Of a DNA stretch of 64,000 nt, positions 25,142 through 29,031 are shown piece by piece. The position numbers were made by a program, and so were the translations under genes. Each line of letters opens with the position of its first letter. Position 1 is the stretch's first letter. Source of the DNA: Sphaerisporangium fuscum (lineage in GTDB: Bacteria > Actinomycetota > Actinomycetes > Streptosporangiales > Streptosporangiaceae); NCBI RefSeq assembly GCF_018531465.1, contig NZ_JAHDTF010000006.1:62001-126000 (forward strand), in the 5' to 3' direction. The notes under the pieces were generated by a model. It was not told the DNA's origin and made no database searches. It worked only from the letters and a program-made list of their open reading frames with translations.

Positions 25142-25171
25142 CTCCTTCCGGGCGTGATCGGTGAGGAGTCA
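25139..25171. terminator. Weak hairpin overlapping two convergent stop codons
   Basis: TGACTCC (25139-25145) and GGAGTCA (25165-25171) form a 7-bp stem with a 19-nt loop. The stem contains the TGA stops of both converging genes. It is plausible as a short bidirectional terminator but weak by stem length. Confidence 0.3.
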
Positions 25172-26356
25172 GACGACGGCGGCCGGGACGTCGTCTTCGG
25201 CCGGCCGGGTGGCCGCGGGCGTGCGAGGCAGGGCGAGGTAGGTCAGGGCCAGGCCCGCCAGGCTCAGGGCCGCGCCGGCCAGCCCGGTCCAGCGCAGGGC
25301 GCCCGCCGAGACGATGACGCCGCCGATGGCCGAGCCGGTGGCCGCGCCGAGGTTGAAGGCGCCGACGTTGGCGGAGAAGGCCAGCGTCGGGGCGTCGCCC
25401 GCGTGGCGCAGGATCAGCCCCTGCAGGGGCGCGATGGTGGCGGTGGCGAGCAGGCCGAGCACCAAGACCGACGCCACTGCCGAAGGCCGCCAGACGGCGG
25501 CGAACGGAATGAGGACGAGCACACCGGTCAACCCGCCGAACACGCCACGCACGGTGGCGCTCATGGACTTGTCGGTGAGCCGGCCGGCGAGGAGGTTACC
25601 GCAAAAGCTGCCCGCCCCGTACGCGAGCAGGAGCCCCGAGACGGCCGTGGAGGAGAATCCCGACACGCGCGTCAGCAACGGGGCGATGTAGGTGAACACC
25701 GTGCTGACGCCGGAGAATCCGACCGCGGTGGTGGCGATGGCCAGCAGCACCGGACGGCGGGTCACCACCCGGGCCTCGTCCCGCAGCCGCGTGGCCGGGG
25801 CCGGCTGCTTGGGCAGGACGGCTGCGAGCAGCACGACCCCTGCCACCGCCAGTGCGGTCAGGACGGCGAACGGGGCGCGCCATCCGGCGCTTTCCCCCAG
25901 CAGTGCGCCCAATGGCACGCCGAGCAGGGTCGCCACGGTGAAGCCGGAGGCGACCGTGGAGATCGCCGTGCCGGTCTTGTCCGGCGGGACCACGCTGGTC
26001 GCCATCACCAGCGCCAGGGCGAGGAAGGCGGCGTGGCTGAACGACGAGACCAGGCGGCCCACCAGCAGCAGCTCGTAGGAGGGGGCCAGGGCGCAGATCG
26101 CGCTGCCCACCGCGAACAACAGCATCAGCCCCAGCGCGAGCCCCTTACGGGGCATCCTGGTGGTCGACATGGCCACGAGGGGGCCACCGGCCACGACTCC
26201 GAGCGCGTAGACGGTGACCGCCTGCCCGGCCGTGCCCACCGACACATTCAGGTCCGCTCCGACCTGGGGCAACAGCCCCGAGATCAAGTACTCCGACGTC
26301 CCGACGACGAAGACGCTCACGCACAGGGCCGCGAGCGTCGCGATAGTCCTTCTCAT
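25169..26356 (-). CDS. MFS transporter, DHA1 family (AraJ/Cmx-like efflux)
   Basis: The 395-residue, 12-helix drug:H+ antiporter-1 protein starts with V-G-T-S-E-Y-L-I-S-G-L-L-P, the N-terminal signature of AraJ/PurR-efflux-like exporters. The motif after TM2 is modified to M-S-T-T-R-M-P-R-K. Substrate is unknown; relatives export chloramphenicol, sugars or nucleosides. The ATG lies 7 nt from a -10-like TAGCGT, so the transcript may be leaderless. The divergent MerR gene and the 19-20-bp spacer promoter between them make MerR control very likely. Confidence 0.88.
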   Translation of the reverse strand: MRRTIATLAALCVSVFVVGTSEYLISGLLPQVGADLNVSVGTAGQAVTVYALGVVAGGPLVAMSTTRMPRKGLALGLMLLFAVGSAICALAPSYELLLVGRLVSSFSHAAFLALALVMATSVVPPDKTGTAISTVASGFTVATLLGVPLGALLGESAGWRAPFAVLTALAVAGVVLLAAVLPKQPAPATRLRDEARVVTRRPVLLAIATTAVGFSGVSTVFTYIAPLLTRVSGFSSTAVSGLLLAYGAGSFCGNLLAGRLTDKSMSATVRGVFGGLTGVLVLIPFAAVWRPSAVASVLVLGLLATATIAPLQGLILRHAGDAPTLAFSANVGAFNLGAATGSAIGGVIVSAGALRWTGLAGAALSLAGLALTYLALPRTPAATRPAEDDVPAAVV

Positions 26357-26436: not shown

Positions 26437-26820
26437 GTGCGCATCGGTGAACTGTCACGGCGGACCGGCGTCCACGAGCGCCTGCTGCGCTACTACGAGG
26501 AGCAAGCGCTGCTCCATCCCGAGCGGCGTCCCAGCGGTTACCGGGAATACAGCGACGGGGACATCGACACCGTCCGCCGCATCCGCAGCCTCCTGGCCGC
26601 CGGCTTGACCACCTCCACCATCGCCACGATCCTTCCCTGTCTGCGCGACGACGGCGACCGGCTGATCCCGACATGCCCAGACCTGCTCGCCGACCTGCAT
26701 CGAGAACGTGAACGGATCACACAATCGATCAGCGACCTGCAGACGTCCCTGGGCGCACTCGACGAAGTCATCGCGGCGGCCCCGCCGGATGTCAGGCGCC
26801 GCGCGGGGAGTGACTCGTGA
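26437..26820 (+). CDS. MerR family transcriptional regulator
   Basis: The 127-residue protein begins M-R-I-G-E-L-S-R-R-T-G-V and has the canonical winged HTH (L-L-R-Y-Y-E-E-Q-A-L-L, then R-P-S-G-Y-R-E-Y). A dimerisation coiled coil lies at ~80-118. The short C-terminal part has one Cys in the L-P-C-L segment and one in P-T-C-P. There is no classical metal-binding C-terminal motif, so it probably senses an organic compound. It is divergent from the MFS exporter over an 80-nt gap containing its likely operator. Confidence 0.9.
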   Translation: MRIGELSRRTGVHERLLRYYEEQALLHPERRPSGYREYSDGDIDTVRRIRSLLAAGLTTSTIATILPCLRDDGDRLIPTCPDLLADLHRERERITQSISDLQTSLGALDEVIAAAPPDVRRRAGSDS

Positions 26821-26830
26821 GTTAAGAAAA

Positions 26831-26873
26831 TCAAGATCGACATCTTGAAAATCAAGATTTAACTAGGTATAAC
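26831..26873 (+). promoter_or_regulatory. Strong leaderless promoter overlaid by three operator half-sites
   Basis: TTGAAA (26845-26850), a 17-nt spacer and TATAAC (26868-26873) form an almost consensus promoter. It ends 7 nt before ATG 26881, so the transcript should start at or near the start codon. TCAAGAT (26831-26837), ATCTTGA (26842-26848) and TCAAGAT (26852-26858) are three copies of one half-site in alternating orientation, covering the -35. The stretch is very AT-rich for this genome. Confidence 0.75.
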
Positions 26874-26880
26874 TTAAGAC

Positions 26881-27258
26881 ATGACAGATCAGGCGATGGA
26901 CTGGCAGGAACTCACGAACCTGACCCAGGGCCGGCCGTTCGTCGTCGAGCGGGTGCGCCTGGCAGGCAGCGGCGTCGCGATCGAGGGCGAGTTCGAGCTC
27001 CCGCAACTGGCCCAGCTCAGCGTCGAGGACCAGATCTTCGTCACGGCGTTCGTGCGGTGCCACGGTTCCATCAAGCAGATGGAACGGATCTTCGGGGTCA
27101 GCTATCCGACGATCAAATCACGCCTCAACCGCATCTCGCAGATGCTCGACTTCGTCGAGACCGATCCGGCGTCGCCGCCGGCCGACATCATCGATCGGCT
27201 GCGCCGCGGCGAGATCACCGCGCAGCAGGCATTGTCCGAGTTGGAGGGGCGGACGTGA
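26881..27258 (+). CDS. DUF2089 family HTH protein
   Basis: The 125-residue protein matches DUF2089: an N-terminal all-beta half, then a helix-turn-helix-like segment (L-S-V-E-D-Q-I-F-V-T-A-F-V-R-C-H-G-S-I-K-Q-M-E, G-V-S-Y-P-T-I-K-S-R-L-N-R-I). The C-terminal end is R-R-G-E-I-T-A-Q-Q-A-L-S-E-L. The N-terminal zinc ribbon found in some members is absent. It heads a three-gene operon with a small membrane protein and a SHOCT-like protein. It is the natural candidate to bind the repeated half-sites over its own promoter; this is inference. Confidence 0.82.
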   Translation: MTDQAMDWQELTNLTQGRPFVVERVRLAGSGVAIEGEFELPQLAQLSVEDQIFVTAFVRCHGSIKQMERIFGVSYPTIKSRLNRISQMLDFVETDPASPPADIIDRLRRGEITAQQALSELEGRT

Positions 27259-27515
27259 TGCCCCAGCTGGTGACCGTACGGGTCGAACGCCCGGACCGCC
27301 GCCGCATCCGGATCTGGATTCCAGTGCTCCCGGTCGTGCTCGTGCTTTCACCGATCATGATCCTGGCCGTCCTGGGCGCGGTCGTGGCCTGCCTCGTCTT
27401 TCACGTCGATGCGGTGCGGGCGCTCGGCGTCGGCTGGCGGGTCGCCTGCGCGTTGCCCGGCACCCGAATCGACATGGAGTACAGCCGTACGGCTGTACTC
27501 GTAGCCATCCGATAG
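27258..27515 (+). CDS. Small membrane protein in the DUF2089 operon
   Basis: The 85-residue protein has a basic N-terminus (V-R-V-E-R-P-D-R-R-R-I-R) and one long or two short hydrophobic helices (W-I-P-V-L-P-V-V-L-V-L-S-P-I-M-I-L-A-V-L, then G-A-V-V-A-C-L-V-F). A short C-terminal region ends V-L-V-A-I-R. Its ATG shares one base with the upstream stop (TGATG), so the two are translationally coupled. Such a protein between DUF2089 and SHOCT-like genes is a recurrent arrangement, probably tethering or signalling at the membrane; the function is unknown. Confidence 0.7.
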   Translation: MPQLVTVRVERPDRRRIRIWIPVLPVVLVLSPIMILAVLGAVVACLVFHVDAVRALGVGWRVACALPGTRIDMEYSRTAVLVAIR

Positions 27516-27526
27516 GAGAGGTTTCG

Positions 27527-27949
27527 ATGAACGAGCAGCGCAAGGGCATCCTCGACCTGCTGAGCGAAGGCAAGATCACCACGGACGAGGCGGGGCGGCT
27601 CATCGACGCACTCGAACGAGCCCAGCCGCCCACGGCGGCCAGTCCCGCCGTCCGGCCGAAAGGCAAGGCGAAGTACCTGCGGGTGATGATGGAGTTCCTC
27701 GAGAACGGCGAGTCGGAGCGGCTCAACGTGCGGGTACCGCTGCAACTGCTGCGGGCCGGCGTACAGCTGGCGGCCCTGGTCCCGCCGCAGGCACTGGATC
27801 GGGCCAACGCCGAGCTGAGCAGGTCGGGCGTGCCGTTCGATCTGACGCAGCTCAAGCCCGAACACCTCGGGGCGCTCGTGGAGCACCTCGACGAGACCAT
27901 CGTGGAGCTCGAGCTGCACGATGGCCACTTGCGTGTCTTCTGCGAGTAG
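27527..27949 (+). CDS. SHOCT-like (YvlB N-terminal-like) domain protein
   Basis: The 140-residue protein opens with a short helical domain, R-K-G-I-L-D-L-L-S-E-G-K-I-T-T-D-E-A-G-R-L-I-D-A-L. This is the SHOCT/YvlB-N pattern, and almost the same pattern ends the DUF2089 protein two genes upstream (R-R-G-E-I-T-A-Q-Q-A-L). The remaining ~90 residues are an alpha/beta segment with V-R-V-P-L-Q-L-L-R-A-G. ATAGGAGAGG precedes the ATG. It is the third gene of the DUF2089 operon. Relatives are linked to envelope stress in Firmicutes (YvlABCD), but nothing is established here. Confidence 0.75.
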   Translation: MNEQRKGILDLLSEGKITTDEAGRLIDALERAQPPTAASPAVRPKGKAKYLRVMMEFLENGESERLNVRVPLQLLRAGVQLAALVPPQALDRANAELSRSGVPFDLTQLKPEHLGALVEHLDETIVELELHDGHLRVFCE

Positions 27950-28428
27950 GCGCCGTCCGGCTGGACGGGCCCCCGCGAAGGTCCCGGCACACCCTCCGAG
28001 GCCGCGCCCACTTCAGCAGAGCACGGTCGAGCCGCCGATCTGACCCCTGGCCGCCCATCGGCGTGGTTCGGTCGACCTCCACACCCGCAGCGGCGAGGTC
28101 CGCGTCCGCGAGGGCATCGAGCACTCCGGCGGATACCGCCAATCGGCGACGACGTCGTCGACCACGCGCACGGCGCGCTCATCTCGAGGACCGCCTCGGA
28201 ATCCATCCGGGTCGAAGAGGTCCTGCGCGGCGCGAGGTGCATTCCCTGAACCCACGTGGTATCTCGGCGAGCTCTGGAGGACCTGGAGCTTCCGCACCGA
28301 CCGGCTCGAACAGCTCCACGGGAAGCTGAGCGGACACGGCCGCAGGGCCGGACGAGCCGGCTGTAGTACCTGCAGATAGTCCCAGACTCGGTGGCGCGGT
28401 GCCACCCCCTCACCACGGAGGAGGCCGG
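27950..28428. other. 479-nt region without an intact gene, possible decayed DUF4097-like remnant
   Basis: No frame looks like a complete gene. In one plus frame near 28071-28115 a short reading S-V-D-L-H-T-R-S-G-E-V-R-V-R-E-G has the strand pattern of DUF4097 beta-helix proteins, which often follow YvlB-like domains. A second codon-like stretch (D-D-V-V-D-H-A-H-G-A-L-I-S) lies in another frame at ~28148-28245. Both may be chance. A small hairpin GGTGGC/GCCACC (28390-28406) sits just before the ribosome-binding site of the next gene. Confidence 0.35.
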
Positions 28429-29031
28429 ATGCCGGCAGATCCCCCCAGCCCGCCCGCGCTTCGCGCGTCCGACGCGGACCGCGACCGGGTCGCCGAACTG
28501 CTGAGCGTCGCCGTCGCCGACGGCCGGCTCGACCCGGTCGAGTTCGACGAACGGCTGGCTGCGGCGCTGGCCGCCCGCACCATCGACGCGCTGGCCCCGC
28601 TCACCACCGATCTGATCGCGGTGCCGGGCAGGGATGGCGCCCGCACGCCGCCGTTCGCCGGGACGCCGGCCGCCGAACTGCTCGTCATCAAGGAGCGGCA
28701 CGGCTCGGTGCGCCGTGACGGCCGCTGGACACTGCCGCGCCGGCTGGCGCTGCGCACCGCGTGGTGCGACGTGACGCTGGACCTGACCAGCGCGGTGCGC
28801 AGCGCACCCGAGCTGGTCATCGAGCTGCGGGTGAACGGCGGCAACGTGGAGTTGATCCTCGCGCCGGGCATGGTGGTGGACGCCAACGAACTGTCGGTAC
28901 GGCACAGCAGTCTGGCGATCAGCAGGGACGCGGGCGACGACACGCCGGAGACGCTGTACGTCCGCTTGGTGGGCCGAATGCGGCACGGCCTGCTCGACAC
29001 CCGGTGGCAGGCGCCGCGCCGGGCGCCATAG
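28429..29031 (+). CDS. DUF1707 domain-containing protein
   Basis: The 200-residue protein has an N-terminal DUF1707 domain (R-A-S-D-A-D-R-D-R-V-A-E-L-L, then G-R-L-D-P-V-E-F-D-E-R-L), residues ~9-60. A beta-rich C-terminal half follows (L-R-T-A-W-C-D-V-T-L-D-L-T-S-A, then G-N-V-E-L-I-L-A-P-G-M-V-V), resembling the LiaF/DUF2154-like fold. There is no membrane helix. GGAGGAG lies at ideal spacing before ATG 28429. DUF1707 proteins are common in actinobacteria and lack a proven function; the LiaF-like half suggests envelope-stress control. Confidence 0.82.
   Translation: MPADPPSPPALRASDADRDRVAELLSVAVADGRLDPVEFDERLAAALAARTIDALAPLTTDLIAVPGRDGARTPPFAGTPAAELLVIKERHGSVRRDGRWTLPRRLALRTAWCDVTLDLTSAVRSAPELVIELRVNGGNVELILAPGMVVDANELSVRHSSLAISRDAGDDTPETLYVRLVGRMRHGLLDTRWQAPRRAP

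Follow-up and report, generated by a model that had tools for sequence, protein, structure and literature searches.

DUF2089 is a broad protein family with a predicted HTH, for which a role in converting membrane signals to transcription was predicted (Ravi et al. 2024; PMC11237479). The canonical protein is composed of a zinc ribbon, the HTH, and a SHOCT-like tail (PMC11237479). The word "operator" is absent from the text of that report, and the literature searched yielded no described binding site of DUF2089. The B. subtilis YvlABCD, Lia, and PSP modules also combine a SHOCT-like domain with a membrane partner. In a different context, autoregulated repressors with helically phased operator arrays exist, in which several half-site pairs stand in register at the promoter of the repressor gene itself.

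Here we describe a DUF2089-headed operon within a 64,000-nucleotide stretch of the Sphaerisporangium fuscum genome (hereafter, the window; Table 1). Its DUF2089 protein has the PF09862 HTH and the SHOCT-like tail in common with the canonical form, but is without the zinc ribbon, heads its own operon, and carries an operator array. As in the YvlABCD, Lia, and PSP modules, a SHOCT-like domain is accompanied by a presumed membrane partner, and a role in envelope stress is plausible, whereas the three window genes are without Toastrack, PspC, LiaF-TM, or holin domain. As in the autoregulated repressors, several half-site pairs are in register at the own promoter; unlike in those systems, the HTH is sigma-region-4-like, and the half-site resembles, and often coincides with, the TTGA core of the −35 hexamer. 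In at least four lineages, the family-specific array of half-sites overlaps or flanks the −35 of the own promoter; elsewhere in the genomes searched, it was hardly found. With this array, an uncharacterised regulator family gains a concrete, testable DNA target at its own promoter in several phyla.

The DUF2089 operon of S. fuscum

The first-pass annotation of the window had placed the promoter TTGAAA-17-TATAAC 7 nt before the ATG of the DUF2089 gene, in an AT-rich island and overlaid by the sites TCAAGAT, ATCTTGA, and TCAAGAT. The promoter coordinates hold exactly, and the three sites are present within 28 bp (26831-26837, 26842-26848, and 26852-26858); six TCAAGAT-type matches were observed in the 64 kb against 1.5 expected, and three of them sit at this promoter. 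The AT-rich island was borne out by the related loci, for which mean AT contents of 0.75, 0.68, and 0.61 were obtained per 20-bp block from −60 to −1, compared with about 0.3 farther upstream. To call the promoter exceptionally strong was, however, an overstatement. Its hexamers agree with the consensus at 10 of 12 positions and the last base of the −10 is C, as in most relatives (48/69); a consensus promoter scan demanding the final T misses it. Neither Rfam RNA nor terminator was found. The element begins directly after the stop codon of an upstream MerR gene, and read-through is possible.

Table 1. Features of the DUF2089 operon and its promoter (positions in the window)
Feature	Position	Strand	Remarks
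Conserved operator/promoter element, about 60 bp	26821..26880	+	Ends at start codon; conserved in 69 loci
Module 1, TTAA-N5-TCAA	26822..26834	+	Half-sites 26822-26825 and 26831-26834
−35 hexamer TTGAAA, also TTGA half-site	26845..26850	+	Read from sequence
Half-site TCAAGAT	26852..26858	+	21 bp past half-site at 26831; N17 (21-bp pitch) enriched
−10 hexamer TATAAC	26868..26873	+	17-nt spacer from −35; 7 nt to ATG at 26881
TTAAGAC discriminator	26874..26880	+	Possible further half-site (consensus TTnAGAT)
Gene 1, zinc-less DUF2089 variant	26881..27258	+	PF09862 DUF2089-HTH, 67.6 bits (cut-off 33.4)
DUF2089 domains			Sigma region 4/NarL-type HTH, residues 46-90; C-terminal SHOCT-like, about 99-121
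Gene 2, small hydrophobic, presumably membrane protein	27258..27515	+	Start overlaps gene 1 stop (TGATG)
Gene 3, SHOCT-like protein with unnamed C-terminal alpha/beta region	27527..27949	+	PF22746, 32.3 bits

The AlphaFold2 model of the window DUF2089 (mean pLDDT 83.5) combines an HTH bundle with a short beta region and a tail of two helices. Its HTH could be superposed on those of sigma region 4 and on NarL-type domains (best Z 7.2, shared by many), in agreement with weak Pfam hits; Foldseek E-values for the model were weak (best 0.14), and sequence searches against solved structures gave nothing useful. The window protein gave no hit to the zinc ribbon PF22747 and contains no CxxC; PF22747 hits were obtained for 6 of the 64 DUF2089 members scanned, a set that included six canonical controls. 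The N-terminus of the zinc-less variant carries a W-Q/H-E/D-L motif.

The G-x-I-T motif noticed earlier in both proteins 1 and 3 belongs to a homologous SHOCT-like domain: the C-terminus of DUF2089 matched the N-terminus of protein 3 with an hhalign probability of 96%, as against 0.2% for the HTH control. Direct hits to PF22746 were obtained for all 57 members of the protein-3 family and for 35 of the 64 DUF2089 members, the window protein itself having none. A beta-hairpin common to proteins 2 and 3 or to proteins 1 and 3 was also considered, and found unsupported (hhalign 14% and <1%). Pfam search of protein 2 gave no hit, PspC and holin-like families included, and Toastrack (DUF4097) was detected by Pfam neither in protein 3 nor in 57 relatives; for the C-terminal region of protein 3, no convincing structural neighbour was found. 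By clade, protein 2 was present in 68/69, 9/10, 12/16, 25/26, and 9/30 loci, and protein 3 in 68/69, 10/10, 16/16, 25/26, and 28/30 (147/151 in total). In the actinomycete loci the three genes remain together, whereas the upstream MerR gene and mostly also the downstream DUF1707 gene do not stay with them.

Conservation of the promoter element in actinomycetes

By a scan of public genomes, 80 loci with DUF2089 relatives were collected, and the window and 68 actinomycete loci (Streptosporangiaceae, Micromonosporaceae, Pseudonocardiaceae, Frankia, and others) were aligned at the ATG without gaps. Strong conservation was observed from −59 to −1 across the 69 loci, and almost none farther upstream, where the flanks are unrelated. 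The consensus of the element is TTAAGAAAATTAAGATCAACnTCTTGAAAGTTGAAGATnnnnnnGGTATAACTTTAGAT-ATG, in which T at −6, A at −4, and T at −1 of the discriminator are each found in at least 90% of the 69 loci. The repeats had been proposed as an operator tied to the DUF2089 operon and expected before orthologous operons. This was the case for the degenerate half-site, which is conserved and precedes nearly all of them, but not for the exact 7-mers TCAAGAT and ATCTTGA, which vary. Nor was the grouping of three half-sites as a unit supported: they belong to an array built from modules, each a pair of half-sites at a 9-bp distance. The second module of the actinomycete type-1 form is irregular, having N3 and not N5 in the window.

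For 59 of the 70 type-1 sequences, a distance of 6-7 nt separates the end of the best −10 box from the ATG, and an SD 5-mer was detected in 1/70, as fits the leaderless arrangement that had been suggested. At locus L082, the start region is shortened and the first ATG lost; the next in-frame ATG lies 6 nt past a −10 box TATATC, and the short distance is thus retained despite this loss. Longer leaders were found in actinomycete type-2 genes and in other clades, where SD 5-mers are commoner. Leaderless genes are well known in actinobacteria, as exemplified in PMC3898074 and PMC3160421. The transcript of the actinomycete form probably starts at the ATG. In two further loci (L005 and L097), DUF2089 matches only from about residue 18 and has no AT-rich element upstream; these copies are possibly decayed or re-started.

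Half-site code in other lineages

Zinc-less relatives of DUF2089 also occur in 26 of 197 Coriobacteriia genomes, in 58 of 132 genomes of the phylum Zixibacteria, most of them strong, and in Chloroflexota as a minority alongside canonical forms. The upstream regions outside the actinomycetes do not align with the window. Nevertheless, the same code recurs in a wider form, namely half-sites TTGA, TTAA, or TCAA at a 9-bp pitch (N5). In each clade TTRA-N5-TYAA formed a sharp peak among spacers 0-20, being present in 48 of 70 type-1 sequences, 8 of 10 in a second set, 13 of 16 Chloroflexota variants, 22 of 26 Coriobacteriia, and 23 of 30 Zixibacteria, as against means of 0.1-2.6 across the same five sets after dinucleotide shuffling, the control used throughout. 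For most clades tested, no spacing was more enriched than N5, and by an unbiased dyad scan TTGA-N5-TCAA or TTAA-N5-TTAA ranked first in Coriobacteriia, Chloroflexota variants, and Zixibacteria.

As a second control, the remainder of each locus was divided into 150-bp chunks, in which half-sites TTGA, TTAA, and TCAA were counted. N5 modules numbered 61 in 70 type-1 promoters and 12 in 2140 chunks (0.87 vs 0.006 per 150 bp), 36 in 26 and 9 in 395 for Coriobacteriia (1.38 vs 0.023), 47 in 30 and 24 in 479 for Zixibacteria (1.57 vs 0.05), and 23 in 16 and 14 in 481 for Chloroflexota variants (1.44 vs 0.03). The overall density of the code in promoters was 30-150 times that of the remaining locus DNA. 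The looser definition TYRA was abandoned, since TCGA, frequent in GC-rich genes, mimics a half-site; one coding site at +265 recurs.

The separations between modules were 21, 31, 52-53, and 83-84 bp, with a best common period of 10.5 bp, indicating that the modules lie on one face of DNA. For Coriobacteriia, 23 of 24 module pairs were exactly 21 bp apart. The scan statistic has some coding-DNA background for pitches divisible by 3; the distances 31, 52, 53, and 83 are no codon multiples.

For canonical zinc-ribbon DUF2089 genes the pattern is partial, weak in a set of 14 and clearer in a set of 40 upstream regions chosen blind, in which N5, N8, and N17 were enriched more weakly than in the variants. 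Our early reading that canonical genes are without the code (0/14 for TTRA-N5-TYAA) was revised after the blind set. In family f19 and other actinobacterial families, probably including mycobacteria, canonical DUF2089 has no AT-rich promoter of its own and starts within, or right at the end of, an upstream reading frame (L113, L116-L134).

Possible autogenous repression by DUF2089

The reading that we prefer, with a probability of roughly two in three, takes the element for an autoregulatory operator: the DUF2089 protein would bind cooperatively at its own promoter, repress it, and be released through a SHOCT-linked signal. The sigma-region-4-like HTH would bind the half-sites as dimers, and these dimers may associate cooperatively along one face of DNA. 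DUF2089 would then compete with sigma for the −35, leading to repression of the operon. Its SHOCT-like tail may meet the corresponding domain of protein 3, and protein 3 and the small membrane protein could jointly tie repression to the state of the membrane; upon stress, the repressor would be released and all three proteins made.

As to the position relative to the promoter, 19 of 24 Coriobacteriia and 10 of 16 Chloroflexota variants have a module that begins exactly at the −35; it lies 21 bp upstream in others, inside the −35/−10 spacer in actinomycete type 2, and past the −10 in Zixibacteria. That the half-site overlaps the −35 core points to a repressor in competition with sigma for identical bases. 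Judged from site positions alone, repression would be favoured, and a smaller share goes to activation or a dual role. Binding of DUF2089 to its own promoter as an activator (positive feedback) or dual regulator, and not mainly as a repressor, is unlikely, though it carries real weight: some modules stand about 21-23 bp upstream of the −35, a position that would allow RNA polymerase to be contacted, and the absence of the last T from the conserved −10 points the same way, while the modules on the −35, within the spacer, and after the −10 occupy positions at which polymerase would be blocked.

The specificity of the array was examined on whole genomes. A sequence-only profile built from the element matched the 10.1-Mb host genome once. 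Among 120 relatives, all matches with E below 1e-5 were located immediately upstream of DUF2089 genes, and the best of the remainder had E 0.03. The double-module pattern, scanned with at most one mismatch over 20 whole Coriobacteriia genomes, was found at 18 places, 15 of which are DUF2089 promoters, including all 5 exact ones. The operator is thus private to the gene and located at its own promoter, as for an autoregulator, and we infer direct binding of the protein. Another protein could recognise TTGA-like cores as well, and the sites might belong to some other regulator, such as a global factor of envelope stress that has DUF2089 as one target among several. Such a factor would leave other sites in these genomes, and across phyla the array accompanies DUF2089 with no obvious other common neighbouring regulator, so that we consider this improbable.

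Much less credit is given to a strong leaderless promoter kept by recent descent or cassette transfer, with the repeats as by-products of AT-rich sequence. The type-1 copies are indeed close (mostly 81-95% identical in protein), and the conserved block includes −35, −10, and start codon. However, positions outside the hexamers are conserved as well as those inside, the same spacing code is found in other phyla despite different promoter placing and leaders, and neither shuffled sequences nor the remaining locus DNA has comparable density. The analogy to the membrane-stress operon YvlABCD of B. subtilis, drawn in the first-pass annotation, fails except for the SHOCT-like domain, and an actinobacterial counterpart is the least credible reading of all: DUF2089 proteins are linked to PSP/Toastrack contexts (PMC11237479), but Toastrack, PspC, and phage-holin families are absent from the three proteins, which contradicts the analogy at the family level.

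A private operator code common to several lineages would fix the target of the family and supply a probe with which to study binding and ligands, and what has been a vague connection of SHOCT domains with membrane stress becomes a testable three-part circuit. As a more speculative extension, possible but on balance doubtful, DUF2089 proteins might be widespread membrane-linked repressors, in which a sigma-region-4-like fold occupies the −35, polymerises on phased TTGA arrays, and is titrated to the membrane when its SHOCT domain contacts that of a partner expressed alongside; the three genes would then form a compact sensor with neither kinase nor anti-sigma factor.

Neighbouring sequences and genes

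Within the end of gene 2, a perfect 24-bp palindrome, GAGTACAGCCGTACGGCTGTACTC (27477-27500), is only partly kept in relatives. The stop-SD-start junction of genes 2 and 3, ATCCGATAGGAGAGGTTYCGATG (27500-27530), is near-identical DNA in several loci of different actinomycete families. Upstream of the operon lies a divergent pair, the MerR-family regulator (26437-26820, +) and an MFS transporter (25169-26356, −), the latter nearest to Cmx/CmrA chloramphenicol exporters, yet below the curated cut-off. Downstream, 28399-29031 encodes a SHOCT-like DUF1707 protein, the C-terminus of which gave a weak LiaF-like hit, and a homologue also lies near the cassette in six other loci (L032, L044, L057, L064, L066, and L099). 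In a Dehalococcoidia relative (L107, 1031-2169), the cassette additionally contains two SHOCT-like proteins, followed by hexapeptide-repeat-like regions.
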